This document shows positions 2,960 through 9,075 of a stretch of DNA of 64,000 nucleotides, piece after piece (position 1 is the first letter of the stretch; the number at the start of each line of letters is the position of its first letter). The stretch spans positions 6,304,169 to 6,368,168 of the forward strand of contig NZ_CM001558.1 of NCBI RefSeq assembly GCF_000281895.1, given 5' to 3'. The translations under genes were made by a program, and so were the position numbers. The notes under the pieces are model-generated. The model searched no databases and was not told the origin of the DNA. It saw nothing but the letters and a program-made list of their open reading frames with translations. Source of the DNA: Pseudomonas fluorescens Q2-87 (GTDB lineage Bacteria > Pseudomonadota > Gammaproteobacteria > Pseudomonadales > Pseudomonadaceae).

Positions 2960-4879
2960 TTACGACACGGATTGCTGGTCCGAAACTTTCGTCAGCGGCT
3001 CCTGGAATCGCAGCAAGCGCCCCGCGTTTCCCAACACCAGCAGCGTGCTCAAATTGTGCAGCAGCGCGGCGATCATGGCACCCGCCGCGCCGAGCCAGCC
3101 GAACGCTGCGAAGGCAACGATCGCCAGTGTCCAACCCAGGCCGATGATCACGTTGACCTGCAGCGTGCGCCTGCATTGGCGGCTGAGGCGTACACAAGTG
3201 CCCAACCGCCGCAGGTCACTGCCGATCAGTACGATGTCCGCCGACGCGAGGGCTATATCCGCACCGCCCGCGCCCATCGCGACGCCAACCACGCCGGCCT
3301 TGAGCGCCAGGGAATCATTGATGCCATCGCCCACCACCATGGGCCGGAACCCTTGGTTGATTTCGGTCATGACCCGCTTGAGTTTGTCTTCCGGCAAGGC
3401 CTGGGCCTGTACGTCACTGATGCCGATTCCCCGCGCCAAGGTGTTGGCCACGCTTTGACGATCACCCGTCAGCAGCAACTGACGTCCCAGGCCTAACGCC
3501 CGCAGTTCCGCCAATGCCACCTGTGCTTCCGGCCTGACGCTGTCCGCCAGCAACAGCCAGGCGAGGAATTGTCCGTCCAGGGCCAGACCGGCAATCGGAC
3601 CGTCGTGCTCGGGCACCGGTGAAGTCTTGATGCCTAACTGTGCGAACAGCTCCGGCCGGCCGAGCGCCGCTTCGCCCTGCCCGGTCATCGCCACCACGCC
3701 CAGTCCCTGCCGCTCATGGATATCCGTCAGGGACGGATAATTCTCCTGCGCCACCAGGCCCGCCAAGGCACGGCTGACCGGATGACTGCTGGCAGAGCCG
3801 AGGCTGGCGGCCAGAGGCAGCAACCCGGGCAAATGATCAGCCTGTGCTCTTTCAATGGTTTGCAGGCGCAAGGCTCCATGCGTCAGCGTGCCAGTCTTGT
3901 CGACGACCAGGGAGGTGAGGTCCGCCAGTTCTTCCAGGAAAGCCGAACTGCGGATGAGTATCCCGTGTCGTGCCGCCACGGCAATCCCGGCGATGGCCGT
4001 CGCCGGTGCCGACAGCACCAACGCACAAGGACACGCAGCAACCAGCACCGCCAGCATCGCCTGGGCATCGTTGGTCACGAACCAGGTCACCGCCGCCAAC
4101 AACAAAACCAGAACCAGATAGCTGCTGGCGTAGCGCTCCAGCAGACGGGTGATGGGCGGTTTTGAGCGTTCGGCGTTCTGCATCAGGGCAATCACTTTGC
4201 CCAGGGTTGATTCATCCCCCGTGCGCGTCACTTGCAGGCGCAGCAACCCATCAAGATTGATTGCACCACCGAAAACTTCGGTGCCGACGACGGCCTCCAG
4301 TGGCACCGACTCGCCGGTGATGGGTGCGGTGTCGAGGCTGGCCTGGCCCGACAGCACCCGGCCATCGGCCGGCACGCGATCACCAGCGCGTACTTCGACG
4401 ATATCGCCGGGCTGAAGCGTTCCGTTGTCCACCTCGATGATCGAGCCGTCTGCCTGGACTTTGCGCCCCTGGCTGCGAGTCAATTGGCCGAGGGCATGAA
4501 TCGCCTCCTGCGAGCCGATGACACTGCGCTCCTCCAGCACGTGCCCGAAGATCATGATGATCGGCAACAATGCCGCCGTCAGCAGATCCCCAGTGGCCCA
4601 GGCGCCAAGCATCGCCAGGGCGATCAATTGGTCAGTGATGCCGTGCAGGCTCGGGAAACGCAAGCTGTACCAGGCAGAACGCATCACCGGCACCGCCACC
4701 AATAGCGAGGCGAAGCCCAACAATAACTGGCTGACACCGGATGGCTCCGGGGACCAGCCGCGCCACACCAGCCCCAAGGCAAGCAATCCCAGGGCGAGCA
4801 TCGCCAACGTCAGTTGCCGGGCGGCGGCGCGTTGTTCGGCCGACGACAACATCGGTGCGGCAGGAGTTGAAGCGCTCAT
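2960..4879 (-). CDS. P1B-type heavy-metal translocating ATPase (HmtA-like, predicted Zn/Cu uptake)
   Basis: ATP-driven transition-metal transporter of the inner membrane, 639 residues. Hallmarks seen: TGES at 188-191, the CPC metal-binding motif at 283-285 in a membrane helix, the phosphorylated Asp in DKTGT at 327-331, the His-Pro locus at 366-367 and GDGIND at 517-522. There is no N-terminal HMA metal-binding domain. It is the last gene of an operon with three SPFH proteins and overlaps the preceding one by four bases (ATGA). The same association of ATPase with HflK/HflC-like genes is known around hmtA of P. aeruginosa, reported as a zinc/copper importer, so import is inferred from context. 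Export cannot be excluded from motifs alone. Confidence 0.85.
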   Translation of the reverse strand: MSASTPAAPMLSSAEQRAAARQLTLAMLALGLLALGLVWRGWSPEPSGVSQLLLGFASLLVAVPVMRSAWYSLRFPSLHGITDQLIALAMLGAWATGDLLTAALLPIIMIFGHVLEERSVIGSQEAIHALGQLTRSQGRKVQADGSIIEVDNGTLQPGDIVEVRAGDRVPADGRVLSGQASLDTAPITGESVPLEAVVGTEVFGGAINLDGLLRLQVTRTGDESTLGKVIALMQNAERSKPPITRLLERYASSYLVLVLLLAAVTWFVTNDAQAMLAVLVAACPCALVLSAPATAIAGIAVAARHGILIRSSAFLEELADLTSLVVDKTGTLTHGALRLQTIERAQADHLPGLLPLAASLGSASSHPVSRALAGLVAQENYPSLTDIHERQGLGVVAMTGQGEAALGRPELFAQLGIKTSPVPEHDGPIAGLALDGQFLAWLLLADSVRPEAQVALAELRALGLGRQLLLTGDRQSVANTLARGIGISDVQAQALPEDKLKRVMTEINQGFRPMVVGDGINDSLALKAGVVGVAMGAGGADIALASADIVLIGSDLRRLGTCVRLSRQCRRTLQVNVIIGLGWTLAIVAFAAFGWLGAAGAMIAALLHNLSTLLVLGNAGRLLRFQEPLTKVSDQQSVS

Positions 4880-5928
4880 TGTTCGGCTCCCTGGATGATC
4901 AGGCGAGAATCGTCTTTGGGATCGACCGTGGTCACTGCGCCGGCCTGACGAAGGATTGCGGGCATGCGCTCACGGTAGAGGCGCAATAACGTTTGCGGAT
5001 CATTGCCTTGGGTCTTCGCCAGGCCCAGCACCGTGGCGGTGTCGGCCGACGCTTTGGCGAGCCGTTCACTGGCCTGGGCATGGGCGACCAGAAGGGCTCG
5101 GTCAGACGACTGTCGCGCGGCCTGGGTGAGCTTTTCGGCTTCGGTGCGAGCATTGGCCACGGTTTTGTCAGCTTGCTGGCTGGCAGTCAGCACCGCATTG
5201 AAGGCACTCACGGCGGGCCCTGGCAGACTCGATTGCACATCGACCCGCACCACTTCGATGCCCAGTCCCTGCCCTGTTCCCGCAAGATCACCCAGCCGTC
5301 GATTGATGCCTTGGACCAGATCGCCCCGCAATCGCTCGCGGCGTTCGGCGGCCTGGCTATCGCTGCCCATCAGTTCCGGACGAGCCACCAGAATGGTATC
5401 CAGGTCCCGGGCCGCTGTCAGGGCCACGGCGCTACGTGCCGCCAGGCGATCCAATGCGGGCAGCACATGCTCACCCTGCAGAACGAAAGCGTAAGGGTCG
5501 GTCACTTTGTAGAACACCCGCACATCCAATTGCACCACGCCGGCATCACCGGTCAATAAATACCCAGAGCCTGCCAGTGCATCACTGACCGGCGTGGCGA
5601 AACTGGCCACTCGGTCGGCCTGCAAGGCTTCATCCGAACGCAACAAATTCTCTACCCGCCGCTCCAGCACCCGATCCGCCGCCGGCAGCAGAATGATTTG
5701 TTCCACAGGACTCGGCCAAGCCAATAGCAAGCCTGCGTTCTGGATTCGATCCAGCGCACCGAAGTGCAGTACCACCGCGCGGTTTTGCGGGTCGATCTGC
5801 CGCACATTGGAGAACACCCACGCCAGCGCTGCCAGGACCGTGACCGCATAAAGCGCTAGAAACGTGAGGCGCCCGGCCTGAATCCACGGGCTGGATAACT
5901 CGTTTGTTCCACGTGGAACCAAACTCAT
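4876..5928 (-). CDS. SPFH/band-7 protein, HflC-like
   Basis: 350-residue SPFH-domain protein with one N-terminal membrane helix (about residues 20-42), then a band-7 region and an alanine- and glutamine-rich coiled coil (about residues 230-300). It resembles HflC, which with HflK forms a membrane ring around the FtsH protease. Here it is a paralogue placed between a second SPFH gene and the metal ATPase, overlapping each by four bases, so it probably scaffolds the transporter and not FtsH. A perfect parS site occupies codons 3-8 (VPRGTN). This is not the canonical hflKC locus, which lies elsewhere in Pseudomonas near hfq. Confidence 0.8.
   Translation of the reverse strand: MSLVPRGTNELSSPWIQAGRLTFLALYAVTVLAALAWVFSNVRQIDPQNRAVVLHFGALDRIQNAGLLLAWPSPVEQIILLPAADRVLERRVENLLRSDEALQADRVASFATPVSDALAGSGYLLTGDAGVVQLDVRVFYKVTDPYAFVLQGEHVLPALDRLAARSAVALTAARDLDTILVARPELMGSDSQAAERRERLRGDLVQGINRRLGDLAGTGQGLGIEVVRVDVQSSLPGPAVSAFNAVLTASQQADKTVANARTEAEKLTQAARQSSDRALLVAHAQASERLAKASADTATVLGLAKTQGNDPQTLLRLYRERMPAILRQAGAVTTVDPKDDSRLIIQGAEQ
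5905..5920. promoter_or_regulatory. parS: parS centromere site (ParB binding)
   Basis: TGTTCCACGTGGAACC matches the Pseudomonas parS consensus, whose inner 14 bases are a perfect palindrome. ParB, encoded at 54.7-55.6 kb in this window, nucleates on such sites to organise and segregate the origin region. The site lies inside a coding sequence about 58 kb left of the oriC region. No second exact copy was found in the window. Confidence 0.88.
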
Positions 5929-6965
5929 GGTTGTGTTCCACCCTTGGGTTCCACGCCAGGAGGACCGTCCACCAAGACACGAAATGGCGCAGCGTCGGTA
6001 CGCAAAATCAGCTTCGTGCCCGGGCTCACGATGGTGCCCAAGGTGTCCAGCGAACGCAGCAAGTTGTAGAGCTGGGGCGCGCCCGCATACGCACGACCAT
6101 AAATCCCGGCCGCCTCCACTCGGGATTGCGCCTCGATATCAGCGGCCTTCACCGTCGCGTCCGCTTGCAATACTCGCGCATCCCGTTCTGCCGCAGAGCG
6201 GATCTGAGCCGCTTCGCGCTTACCGATGGCGGTGCGTTCGGTGGCAATGGTTTCGCGTTCGGCGCGCATGCGATCCACCGTCGCGGTCAGCGTCACCGAA
6301 GGCAAGGTCAGGCGCTCAATGCCCACCTGCAACACGCGCACGCCGTAAGTGGCGAGTAACTGTTGATCGATTTGCTGGCGCAATTGCGCTTCGAAATCGG
6401 CGATACGCACCTGGCTTGCGTCGGTGTTGACCAGGTTGGCCAAGTCAAAACTGGCCGCCGTGGTCTCCAGCGCCGAACCGACGAACGTGCGGATCTGCCG
6501 TGCGGCTTCATCTGGCTGATTCTGCACCGCACGCATAAATCGTTGCACGTTGTCCGGGTCGCCCTGTACCTGCCACGCCACGTAAGCCTGGACGATGATC
6601 CGCAACCCGTCGCGCGTACCGACGTCTTGCAGTCCGCTGGACGTGGTGCGCAGGCGCAAGTCCACCGGGATCGCCGCCTCGAACGGCGCCGGCCAACGCC
6701 AACCCAGGCCAGGTTGCAACAGCACCCGCGCCGGATTGCCGAAGCGAGTGATAACGGTAGCCTCCCCCGAACGCACTTGCACCAGGCTCGCGGCCGCGAC
6801 GGCAAACGCCACCAGCAATGCCGCCCAACCCATCCGCCGCCAGGGGAACGGGCCGGCGTCCTGCCCGGCGCCATGATGGTGGTGATGATGCCCATGGTGA
6901 TGACCGGCATGACGGTGATCATGTCCGGCGTGGTCATGATGATCGTGTGAAGAGGACTGGCTCAA
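5925..6965 (-). CDS. SPFH/band-7 protein, HflK-like, with a histidine-rich N-terminus
   Basis: 346-residue HflK-like protein. The cytoplasmic N-terminus carries 16 histidines within residues 7-31, mixed with Asp and Gly, which is a typical metal-binding stretch. A membrane helix follows at about residues 46-64, then the SPFH domain and a coiled coil (about 215-290). It overlaps both operon neighbours by four bases. The His-rich tail and the adjacent P1B ATPase suggest this SPFH pair binds or buffers zinc or a similar metal next to the transporter. That role is inferred. The membrane topology and SPFH assignment are clear. Confidence 0.82.
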   Translation of the reverse strand: MSQSSSHDHHDHAGHDHRHAGHHHGHHHHHHGAGQDAGPFPWRRMGWAALLVAFAVAAASLVQVRSGEATVITRFGNPARVLLQPGLGWRWPAPFEAAIPVDLRLRTTSSGLQDVGTRDGLRIIVQAYVAWQVQGDPDNVQRFMRAVQNQPDEAARQIRTFVGSALETTAASFDLANLVNTDASQVRIADFEAQLRQQIDQQLLATYGVRVLQVGIERLTLPSVTLTATVDRMRAERETIATERTAIGKREAAQIRSAAERDARVLQADATVKAADIEAQSRVEAAGIYGRAYAGAPQLYNLLRSLDTLGTIVSPGTKLILRTDAAPFRVLVDGPPGVEPKGGTQP

Positions 6966-8923
6966 TGGGCAGCTCCTGGCTGGACAGGGTTACGCGGCGA
7001 CGCGGGGTCTGCCGGCAGCGTGAAGGTACGCAGGTCAATGGTCGGCGCGTTACCGCTGCCGCCGAGGCGATGATCGAGGATCAGCAGTTTGGCATCGACA
7101 AGGCCTTGGCTCAGTTGGCTAAGGTATTGCTCCAGCACAAAGGCATGGCCGGCCTTGGCATAGGCTTGGCGATCCGCGCTGAATCGCAAATCGGCGGCCC
7201 GGGCGGTCGCGTCAATTTCCCGGGCGATGGCTTGGGCCTGGTCATGGACAATGCTGGCCTGCAATTGCGCCTGGTTGGTCTGTTCCGCCGCCGCACCGCG
7301 TTCCCGGGCGATCGATGCCTGGACGCCGATCTGCGCCGCTTGCACGCCGTGGTACGCATTGGCCGCACCGGCCGGTGGGTGAATCGCTTCGACGACCGTC
7401 GCGAGGATCTCCACACCGCTGTCCAATGATTGCAAATCAGCCTGTACGGCGCGACCGATCTCCTCGGCCAGGCTGACACGGTCCGCGCCCAGCAAACCGT
7501 CCAGCGTACGGGAAGCGAACTCATGGACCAGGACCCGACTGGCAGTGCTGCGGATCAACGTCGGCACATCGGCGCTGTTGTAGGTCGCCGCCAGCGCCGC
7601 CGAATCGCTCAGACCGATGCGATAGACGAAGCGCACGTCCATGTTGACGATCTGGAAGCTCTGTTGGTCGGCACGTTGGCTGGCGATAACCTGGGATTTG
7701 TCATTCACATGGCTAGCATCCCAGAGACGATTGGCTATCGCCGGGGCCGGTCCCTCCGCCGGACTGATATCGGAGGGTGCGCCACTGTCGCCAACATTGG
7801 AGGCCAATTCGTGCACGATCCCGTACTCGACGTTGAGCACCCTGCCCAAAGGCCAAGGCAAGGCGACATGCAGGCCCGGGCCGAAGACCTCCACCGGTTT
7901 TCCGAAACGTTCATAGATGCCGCGCCCTTGCAACGGCACCTCGTGCACACCCGTCAATAACCAGCCCACCAGCGCCACCAGGGCCAACACCGGCAAGAAG
8001 GCGCGGCGCATGTAGCTGAAAGCCCAGATCTGGCGCAAGTCGATGCCGAAACGGTTGTGCAATTCATGTTGCAAGGCCAGCAATGGTCGCGGCGGCCAGC
8101 GCAAGAGATCGGCGATGACACTACGGCCCAGCAGCGTCGGCTCCAGGGCATCGCGTCGCGGGATGAACAACGACAGTACCGCCCGCAGCAATAACTCAAC
8201 CGCCACCAGGCCCGGCAGAACGCCCATCAGCACGGCCAAGCGCACCGGCCAGACAGACGCGGGCGCGGCGAACAGCAAGCACAAGGCGCCGAACACCAGC
8301 ACGATGATCGCCACCCGGGTCAGTTGCGCCAAAGGTGACGCTTCGGGCCACTCCACGGCGGGCTGCTGGGCCAGTTGTCGCTCGAACACCAACAGCCCGA
8401 AGGCCAACAATAACGACAACACCGCACCCACACTGGCCGATGCGCCAAGGGTAGCCGCAGGCAACTGCAGGTTCCAGGCTTGCTGCAGGCTAACAAGCAC
8501 GAGCACCGCCCAACCGGCCAGCCACAGGGTGGGCGCACCGATTTGCTTGAACAGCTCAACCCAACGCGCGCCGACTCGCTCAAGCAAACGTTCATACCAG
8601 CCGAGGTTATCCACAATCCCAGGTTCCGGAACCTGATCATCCACCGCTGGCAGCAGCGCCCTGCTCCGCCACTGAGTGATCCACCAGGCCGACTGCAAGC
8701 CCGCCACCAATACCAATAAGCCGGCGCTCTGGCTGACCAACAAGGCCGGCCACACCGATTGTGGCGAAAACAGCCCGATGAAAAAACCAGCGATCAGCGC
8801 CAGTGCGGCCACGCTACCCAGCGCGAAGGCGATTCGCTTCAGGCGTTGCCCCTGAAACGACGCTCGCTGGAAGCGCGGCCATTCGGCCACTCGTGCCCCC
8901 TCGACATCAAGATCGACTTGCAT
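6962..8923 (-). CDS. Large polytopic SPFH protein, first gene of the metal-ATPase operon
   Basis: 653 residues, about twice the length of HflK. The N-terminal half has several hydrophobic segments (about residues 30-50, 58-78, 130-150, 155-180, 205-225, 228-250 and 310-328) separated by charged linkers. The C-terminal half (about 335-610) is an SPFH domain followed by an Ala/Gln-rich coiled coil. It is a distinct HflK-like subfamily member fused to a multi-pass membrane domain. The ATG at 8923 opens the operon and the next gene overlaps by four bases. A Zur-like palindrome lies about 75 bases upstream. No enzymatic motif was recognised in the membrane half. Confidence 0.78.
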   Translation of the reverse strand: MQVDLDVEGARVAEWPRFQRASFQGQRLKRIAFALGSVAALALIAGFFIGLFSPQSVWPALLVSQSAGLLVLVAGLQSAWWITQWRSRALLPAVDDQVPEPGIVDNLGWYERLLERVGARWVELFKQIGAPTLWLAGWAVLVLVSLQQAWNLQLPAATLGASASVGAVLSLLLAFGLLVFERQLAQQPAVEWPEASPLAQLTRVAIIVLVFGALCLLFAAPASVWPVRLAVLMGVLPGLVAVELLLRAVLSLFIPRRDALEPTLLGRSVIADLLRWPPRPLLALQHELHNRFGIDLRQIWAFSYMRRAFLPVLALVALVGWLLTGVHEVPLQGRGIYERFGKPVEVFGPGLHVALPWPLGRVLNVEYGIVHELASNVGDSGAPSDISPAEGPAPAIANRLWDASHVNDKSQVIASQRADQQSFQIVNMDVRFVYRIGLSDSAALAATYNSADVPTLIRSTASRVLVHEFASRTLDGLLGADRVSLAEEIGRAVQADLQSLDSGVEILATVVEAIHPPAGAANAYHGVQAAQIGVQASIARERGAAAEQTNQAQLQASIVHDQAQAIAREIDATARAADLRFSADRQAYAKAGHAFVLEQYLSQLSQGLVDAKLLILDHRLGGSGNAPTIDLRTFTLPADPASPRNPVQPGAAH

Positions 8924-8995
8924 ACCACTCCAGCGCTTTGAGGCGATCAGAACCCGGGGCCGTGGACAGACGCCACCGCCGCTCCGTTATATGGC

Positions 8996-9008
8996 GTTAC
9001 CTTATAAC
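8996..9008. promoter_or_regulatory. Zur-like operator before the SPFH/metal-ATPase operon
   Basis: GTTAC-CTT-ATAAC is an imperfect inverted repeat close to the GTTAT-N3-ATAAC core of zinc-uptake-regulator boxes in gammaproteobacteria, with one mismatch. Read on the minus strand it sits directly upstream of a TATAAC hexamer (8986-8991) that could be the -10 of the operon, so a bound repressor would cover the promoter. The assignment is by motif similarity and gene context only. Confidence 0.5.
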
Positions 9009-9075
9009 GATTACTGTGAAATTTCCGTTTTGAATTCTTCATGACAAACCCCGTCCCTACCCCTTGACTTAAGCC

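Follow-up and report, generated by a model that had tools for sequence, protein, structure and literature searches.

Three SPFH proteins and an HmtA-type P1B ATPase in one operon behind a Zur-like box in Pseudomonas fluorescens Q2-87

The operon and its promoter

The window considered here is a stretch of 64,000 nucleotides from the complete 6.37-Mb chromosome of Pseudomonas fluorescens Q2-87 (NZ_CM001558.1, positions 6,304,169 to 6,368,168). Close to its beginning, on the minus strand from 8923 to 2960, lies an operon that encodes, in this order, the three SPFH proteins SPFH-A, SPFH-B and SPFH-C and a P1B ATPase, designated D, and that is preceded by a Zur-like box (Table 1). The order of the genes and the operator are conserved, and the ATPase and the SPFH genes have an identical distribution. 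The observation stands, and part of it was known before. The control by zinc is largely known already because binding of Zur to the promoter of the corresponding P. aeruginosa cluster has been published. The linkage of the ATPase with the SPFH trio, the His tail of SPFH-B, the predicted domain of SPFH-A resembling cation diffusion facilitators (CDF), the signature of the ATPase and a companion promoter element are new.

Table 1 Features of the operon and of its promoter (positions in the window)
Feature	Position	Strand	Remarks
SPFH-A, 653 aa, first gene	6962..8923	-	N-terminal six-helix membrane domain followed by HflK-like SPFH domain; Band_7 1.3e-19
SPFH-A membrane domain, about residues 18-257	8153..8872	-	six helices with a predicted CDF-like fold; metal ligands not conserved
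SPFH / Band 7 domain of SPFH-A, residues 332-544	7292..7930	-	Pfam
SPFH-B, 346 aa, HflC-like	5925..6965	-	TTG start overlaps the stop of SPFH-A; Band_7
His-rich N-terminal tail of SPFH-B, residues 1-34	6864..6965	-	precedes RR-flanked membrane helix
SPFH-C, 350 aa, HflK-like	4876..5928	-	Band_7; NCBIfam HflK model; PDB HflK 7vhq
HmtA-type P1B ATPase D, 639 aa	2960..4879	-	E1-E2_ATPase and Hydrolase; TIGR01525, TIGR01512
CPC metal motif of ATPase D, residues 283-285	4025..4033	-	ACPCA in 85/85 homologues
HNLST of ATPase D, residues 608-612, last membrane helix	3044..3058	-	homologue alignment
Zur-like box GTTATAAGGTAAC (operon strand)	8996..9008	-	its first base lies 85 bp ahead of the ATG of SPFH-A
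Companion promoter element ACGGAAATTTCAC	9016..9028	-	7 bp upstream of the Zur-like box

In the window, the genes overlap by four bases at each of the junctions A/B, B/C and C/D, as a previous sequence-only reading of this DNA had described. The fixed stoichiometry that had been deduced from these overlaps does not follow because all three of them are kept in just 39 of the 71 Pseudomonas operons that were compared (the window and 70 further loci); taken singly, the overlap is retained at A/B in 45, at B/C in 64 and at C/D in 59 of the operons. The start codons were called by a script, and some of the gaps are start-call artefacts. By the same script-called starts, SPFH-B begins with TTG in 61 of the 71 operons, including the window (6963-6965), and the retention of this weak start codon may lower the output of SPFH-B.

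The Zur-like box reads GTTACCTTATAAC, which corresponds to GTTATAAGGTAACG on the operon strand, and by our own reading the latter agrees at 14 of 14 positions with the published Pseudomonas Zur consensus GWWAYWNNNTWHCR quoted in PMC10393844. Within the 300 bp ahead of SPFH-A, the best match to the pattern GTTATANTATAAC has two mismatches in 65 and three in six of the 71 operons; when each promoter was shuffled 100 times with its dinucleotides kept, no more than 4 of the shuffles equalled the real best site. The upstream sequence is for the most part not conserved, and the retention of the box at no more than three mismatches in 71 of 71 Pseudomonas operons indicates that it is not a chance match. 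In a second set of 80 named loci, which partly overlaps the first, 79 promoters have at most two mismatches and one has six. Outside the genus, one and two mismatches were counted in two Enterobacterales-like loci and three in each of two loci from the same family. Judged from these counts, the box is firm in Pseudomonas and its near kin. A first version of the motif, a 14-mer, was dropped because its spacing was wrong.

Throughout the 6.37-Mb genome, 12 sites differ from GTTATANTATAAC by at most two mismatches, whereas the reversed pattern that served as a control yields 41 sites; the motif as such is therefore not enriched, and the case for the box rests on its conservation and on the neighbouring genes. 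Four of the 12 sites, at three loci, are associated with zinc-linked genes, two of them between the gene of a ZigA-type GTPase (zigA) and folE2, one before a ZrgA-family gene for zinc uptake and one at this operon; by eye, the other eight lie before or inside genes without an evident link to zinc. Furthermore, a box with three mismatches is located between zur and znuA of the same genome, the zur product having the Zur model as its best match, yet with a score below the cut-off of this model. The boxes at zigA/folE2, the ZrgA-family gene and zur/znuA are counted as a Zur regulon of this genome and speak for Zur control of the operon. About 10 kb from the operon, just before the window (6298.9-6303.6 kb of the chromosome), lies a zinc-starvation cluster that comprises a ZigA gene, folE2, an ABC-ATPase-like frame (by eye), a gene for a ZnuA-family protein, a perfect Zur box and a second box.

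The box is accompanied by a second conserved element. Across the 71 operons, the stretch from column -20 to column -8 ahead of the box (consensus ACRRAWWTTTCAC) is conserved almost as strongly as the box itself, with five invariant columns (-20, -12, -11, -9 and -8, each 71/71) and a spacing to the box that is fixed at 7 bp. Outside the region from -20 to about +18 the conservation drops to background. A strict pattern that combines the element with the start of the box matches 69 of the 80 named promoters. The genome contains exactly three copies of the strict form of the element and 16 more with one mismatch, and only the copy of the operon is situated near a Zur-like box. The element was not seen in the two Enterobacterales-like loci. 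It does not lend itself to an interpretation as the -35 box of a sigma-70 promoter, the spacing to a -10-like stretch being unfitting by eye. It is also unlikely that the element is conserved on account of the divergent lpd gene; because a relative of lpd was found in just 35 of the 71 fetched stretches, the element is considered to belong to this operon. Two further loci (L203 and L230) have the near-palindrome GATACGTAATAACGTATC upstream of SPFH-A, which may be a local metal operator in that lineage.

Much of what is known about the control by zinc comes from P. aeruginosa, whose PA2439-PA2434 cluster likewise encodes a HflK/HflC-like trio and the P1B ATPase HmtA (PA2435) behind a Zur-bound promoter. 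However, by locus numbering it contains the extra genes PA2434 and PA2436, which are not part of the window operon. In a znuA mutant, PA2434, PA2435 and PA2437-PA2439 were upregulated 5.6- to 14.4-fold and a weak Zur site was predicted, PA2436 being absent from the respective table passage (PMC4542158). In an electrophoretic mobility shift assay, Zur together with zinc shifted the PA2439 promoter (PMC8531726). Moreover, zinc depletion increased the levels of HmtA and of the PA2437-PA2439 proteins, not all of them significantly (PMC11761036, proteomics), and PA2437-PA2439 were modestly upregulated (log2 0.6 to 0.8) in an N-acetylcysteine transcriptome (PMC9431628). In P. aeruginosa, Zur thus binds the promoter and the products of the cluster are up at low zinc, some of them not significantly and with one mRNA study to the contrary. 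One might nevertheless assign the box to another regulator and regard the operon as unresponsive to zinc in the species studied here, given that one half-site is off the consensus (GTAAC for ATAAC, with this G in 68 of the 71 operons) and that a second conserved element lies next to the box. The zinc-dependent gel shift of the PA2439 promoter and the similar boxes before zigA/folE2 and the ZrgA-family gene make this very improbable. The operon is almost certainly under the control of Zur and very probably induced when zinc is short; the earlier proposal of such control is well supported by the conserved operator and by the published data.

Distribution of the four genes

Among 119 Pseudomonas genomes, the ATPase (E ≤1e-150) and SPFH-A (E ≤1e-40) were each detected in 71, and all 71 ATPase regions contain the four genes close together and in the same order, two of the ATPases being truncated at the end of a contig. 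The Fisher p for the co-occurrence of the ATPase and SPFH-A is 2e-34 when the relatedness of the genomes is ignored. By comparison, a 2026 paper, in which the trio of strain PA14 has been named PaFlo5-7 and a horizontal transfer of the operon is suspected, reports the trio for two of ten other Pseudomonas species (PMC13086221).

Beyond the genus, ATPase matches at ≤1e-90 were obtained in 12 of 398 genomes drawn from the phylum, 11 of them with at least 68% identity. The genus set already contained two of these; the nine further genomes, of which five lie outside Pseudomonas and include Enterobacterales-like ones, all have A, B, C and D. For the twelfth match, which is 36% identical, the fetched stretch of 13.9 kb gave no SPFH match. 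Two class-wide searches of 369 genomes retrieved solely the genome of origin; they understated the spread because the phylum-wide search and the plasmids revealed the cassette elsewhere. Relatives of SPFH-B (E ≤1e-30) are located on ten plasmid records, seven of which come from Rhizobium and one each from Burkholderia, Paraburkholderia and Klebsiella; five of the ten records were opened, and the four genes were present in 5/5. In one locus of the nine further genomes (L201), the gap of about 680 bp between SPFH-C and the ATPase could hold another gene, as PA2436 does by numbering in P. aeruginosa. On a plasmid of Paraburkholderia sprentiae, the cassette adjoins a zinc ATP-binding cassette (ABC) transporter and a PCu(A)C copper chaperone.

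Going by these gene contents, the cassette behaves as a single inherited unit, and the common distribution of the trio and the ATPase supports a joint machine. Physical or functional coupling of the ATPase and the SPFH proteins is likely, since genes need not be lost or transferred together just because they are regulated together.

The SPFH trio and the ATPase

SPFH-A, SPFH-B and SPFH-C all exceed the Pfam gathering cut-off for Band_7 and belong to the SPFH / Band 7 superfamily. The nearest NCBIfam models are HflK for A and C and HflC for B, and all three proteins stay below the curated cut-offs of these equivalog models (A, 57.1 vs 159.4 bits for HflK; B, 90.3 vs 134.4 bits for HflC; C, 90.1 vs 159.4 bits for HflK). 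In the PDB, a profile of 43 SPFH-A proteins matches HflK (7vhp, 8.5e-11), SPFH-B matches HflC (7vhp, 3e-16) and SPFH-C matches HflK (7vhq, 7.5e-06). The HflK/HflC-FtsH system of E. coli therefore offers sequence relatives of B, C and the C-terminal half of A; it differs from the window in that the partner proposed here is a P1B ATPase, that A has six extra membrane helices and that the scores are below the cut-offs. Based on the fact that HflK and HflC are the closest relatives of the trio, and on two zinc papers that tie the trio to FtsH (PMC11761036, PMC9431628), the SPFH proteins could be regarded as a zinc-starvation version of HflKC that modulates the zinc protease FtsH, with shared regulation as the only link to the ATPase. 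We consider this improbable: besides the scores below the HflK/HflC cut-offs, a separate Band_7 gene pair of hflK/hflC size exists elsewhere in the genome, and shared regulation leaves the joint presence or absence in 119 genomes and the joint carriage on plasmids in other classes unexplained.

The N terminus of SPFH-B is rich in histidine, with 16 His in the first 50 residues of the window protein and at least seven in the first 45 residues of 68 of the 71 called proteins; the three lower counts are start-call artefacts because the respective frames contain the His run. The composition of the tail is kept, its sequence is not, and such tails recur on SPFH-B in Rhizobium, Burkholderia, Paraburkholderia and Enterobacterales-like loci. 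In view of the RR pair and the membrane helix that follow (positive-inside reading), and of the topology of HflK/HflC, a cytoplasmic position is probable for the tail and a periplasmic one for the SPFH domain. The tail probably binds zinc.

The N-terminal membrane domain of SPFH-A was modelled alone because the full-length model is poor in the SPFH half (mean predicted local distance difference test score, pLDDT, of 64.7). It is predicted to consist of six helices with a fold that resembles the CDF zinc transporters YiiP and ZnT. In contrast to these transporters, the domain shows neither a sequence match to the family nor conserved metal ligands: no Cation_efflux match was obtained in the 43 members up to E 5, no PDB match was found for the first 263 residues of the window protein, and a profile of SPFH-A searched against structures found SPFH chains alone. 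For the metal site in helices 2 and 5, we assume the positions of YiiP; no Asp/His site was found there in the 43 homologues. Within residues 20-260, solely the columns 50, 131, 183 and 215 contain Asp, His or Cys in at least 30% of the sequences, without an Asp/His pair in helix 2/5.

ATPase D is above the Pfam cut-offs for E1-E2_ATPase and Hydrolase and above those of TIGR01525 (519 bits) and TIGR01512 (488 bits); an N-terminal heavy-metal-binding domain was not found with Pfam. The likeness to HmtA noted by the sequence-only reading has been confirmed, as 620 aa of D align at 81% identity with P0196, a cluster that comprises 1424 sequences under the name P. aeruginosa and is presumably PA2435 (HmtA) itself. 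However, P0196 starts with a His-rich stretch that D does not have. The same kind of start is present in the ATPases of loci L091-L093, and the His element can therefore sit on the pump too.

By sequence, the nearest solved structures of D are the P1B-4 pump sCoaT and the P1B-2 pump ZntA, from both of which it differs. It does not have the pair of Lys in the penultimate and Asp in the last helix that marks P1B-2 pumps (ZntA/CadA); instead, GLGWT and HNLST are found. CadA-type and CopA-type pumps, assigned by their motifs, are encoded separately in this genome, and the CadA-type pump keeps both Lys and Asp (by eye). In the alignment, HNLST sits where ZntA/CadA have the Asp and P1B-4 pumps have HEGxT, and chain 7qbz, which we take to be sCoaT, has HEGST at this place. 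SPC and HEGxT, the P1B-4 (CoaT) motifs whose roles are described in PMC8880997, are replaced by CPC in 85/85 homologues and by HN-x-S/G-T in the last helix of all 83 homologues with an intact C-terminus.

Net import of metal by D is about as likely as not. Overexpression of HmtA reportedly raised the zinc and copper contents of the cells and rendered them hypersensitive (Lewinson 2009, as told in PMC10393844), although the same review regards the import claim as in need of confirmation. As an alternative, D could be an ordinary outward pump that, together with its SPFH platform and in the manner of the PacL/CtpC efflux platforms, removes other metals (copper, cobalt, cadmium) let in under zinc starvation by derepressed unselective importers or loads periplasmic enzymes. 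This is a real possibility, even if its chances are below even. It fits the alignment of HN-x-S/G-T with the HEGxT of sCoaT, which is said to release ions outside, the scaffolded P1B export platform of PacL1/CtpC (PMC9374683), the reservation of the review and the zinc importer and copper chaperone next to the Paraburkholderia cassette; the phenotype of HmtA overexpression and the presence of separate CadA-type and CopA-type pumps in the genome speak against it.

A possible role in zinc supply

We lean towards a Zur-repressed unit in which an HflKC-like SPFH assembly houses or stabilises an HmtA-type pump that supplies zinc to the starved cell. According to this proposal, the four genes would form one unit that is repressed by Zur and induced by zinc starvation. 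The HflK-like A, the HflC-like B and the HflK-like C would assemble into a mixed complex with periplasmic SPFH domains, for which HflK/HflC around FtsH serves as the model, and this complex would house or stabilise the P1B ATPase. Next to the pump would be the CDF-like part of A that lies in the membrane and, on the cytoplasmic side, the His tail of B; there, where the ATPase is without a metal-binding domain of its own, the tail would buffer zinc or hand it over. The pump would help to supply the starved cell with zinc, inward transport being somewhat likelier than outward transport because of the regulon. A further-reaching version is speculative and, in our view, unlikely to hold in full: a new kind of machine in which a P1B ATPase with CPC and HN-x-S/G-T motifs is enclosed in a three-protein SPFH cage, with a dead CDF zinc-transporter fold in one SPFH subunit as membrane adaptor and a cytoplasmic His-rich zinc buffer in another, encoded by a cassette that is mobile across alpha-, beta- and gammaproteobacteria and active in import under zinc starvation.

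Several observations weigh against the proposed role in zinc supply. Addition of zinc did not repress hmtA, whose mRNA stayed at a low level (PMC8531726), and a review excepts hmtA from the Zur-bound promoters (PMC10393844), which conflicts with the gel shift of the PA2439 promoter. The P1B ATPases characterised so far are mostly exporters, and none of the literature consulted describes a physical interaction of the ATPase with these SPFH proteins. Deletion of the trio in P. aeruginosa caused slight phenotypes, which include a biofilm reduced by about 20% and, in larvae of the wax moth, attenuation (PMC13086221); the outline of this paper lists no assay under zinc limitation, and its main text mentions zinc once and contains none of the words Zur, ATPase and HmtA. 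No box with three or fewer mismatches was detected in five plasmid loci (best 4 to 5) and in one genome of another class (best 4), and Zur control of this form is therefore not universal for the cassette. Furthermore, SPFH-B of the opened Klebsiella plasmid locus has no His tail, the ATPase of this locus having a short His-rich start. In one locus SPFH-A is split into two frames, and in one Enterobacterales-like locus the reading frame of SPFH-B is interrupted by a stop after 161 codons; in both, the remainder of the operon is there.

Two known systems resemble parts of the proposed unit. In mycobacteria, the P1B ATPase CtpC is stabilised by PacL1, a membrane protein that is encoded in the operon, has a metal-binding tail and is called flotillin-like in function; however, PacL1 acts independently of flotillin, the word SPFH is absent from the paper, and PacL1-CtpC is an efflux platform for resistance to zinc excess rather than for starvation (PMC9374683). 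In staphylococcal heme uptake, the SPFH scaffold FloA is required by IsdF, a transporter of a metal nutrient, but IsdF is an ABC permease for heme and FloA belongs to another SPFH subgroup.

If the proposed role is correct, it would provide a physiological job for SPFH proteins with slight deletion phenotypes and explain why names of FtsH modulators are attached to proteins that are not HflK/HflC. It would also offer a clean system for deciding whether a P1B ATPase can import metal.

Two further genes lie beside the operon. A phospholipase-D-family gene, presumably cardiolipin-synthase-like, occupies positions 152-1591 of the window, and a cyclopropane-fatty-acid-synthase-like gene, a relative of which is present in 40 of the 71 fetched stretches, extends from 1588 to 2775.

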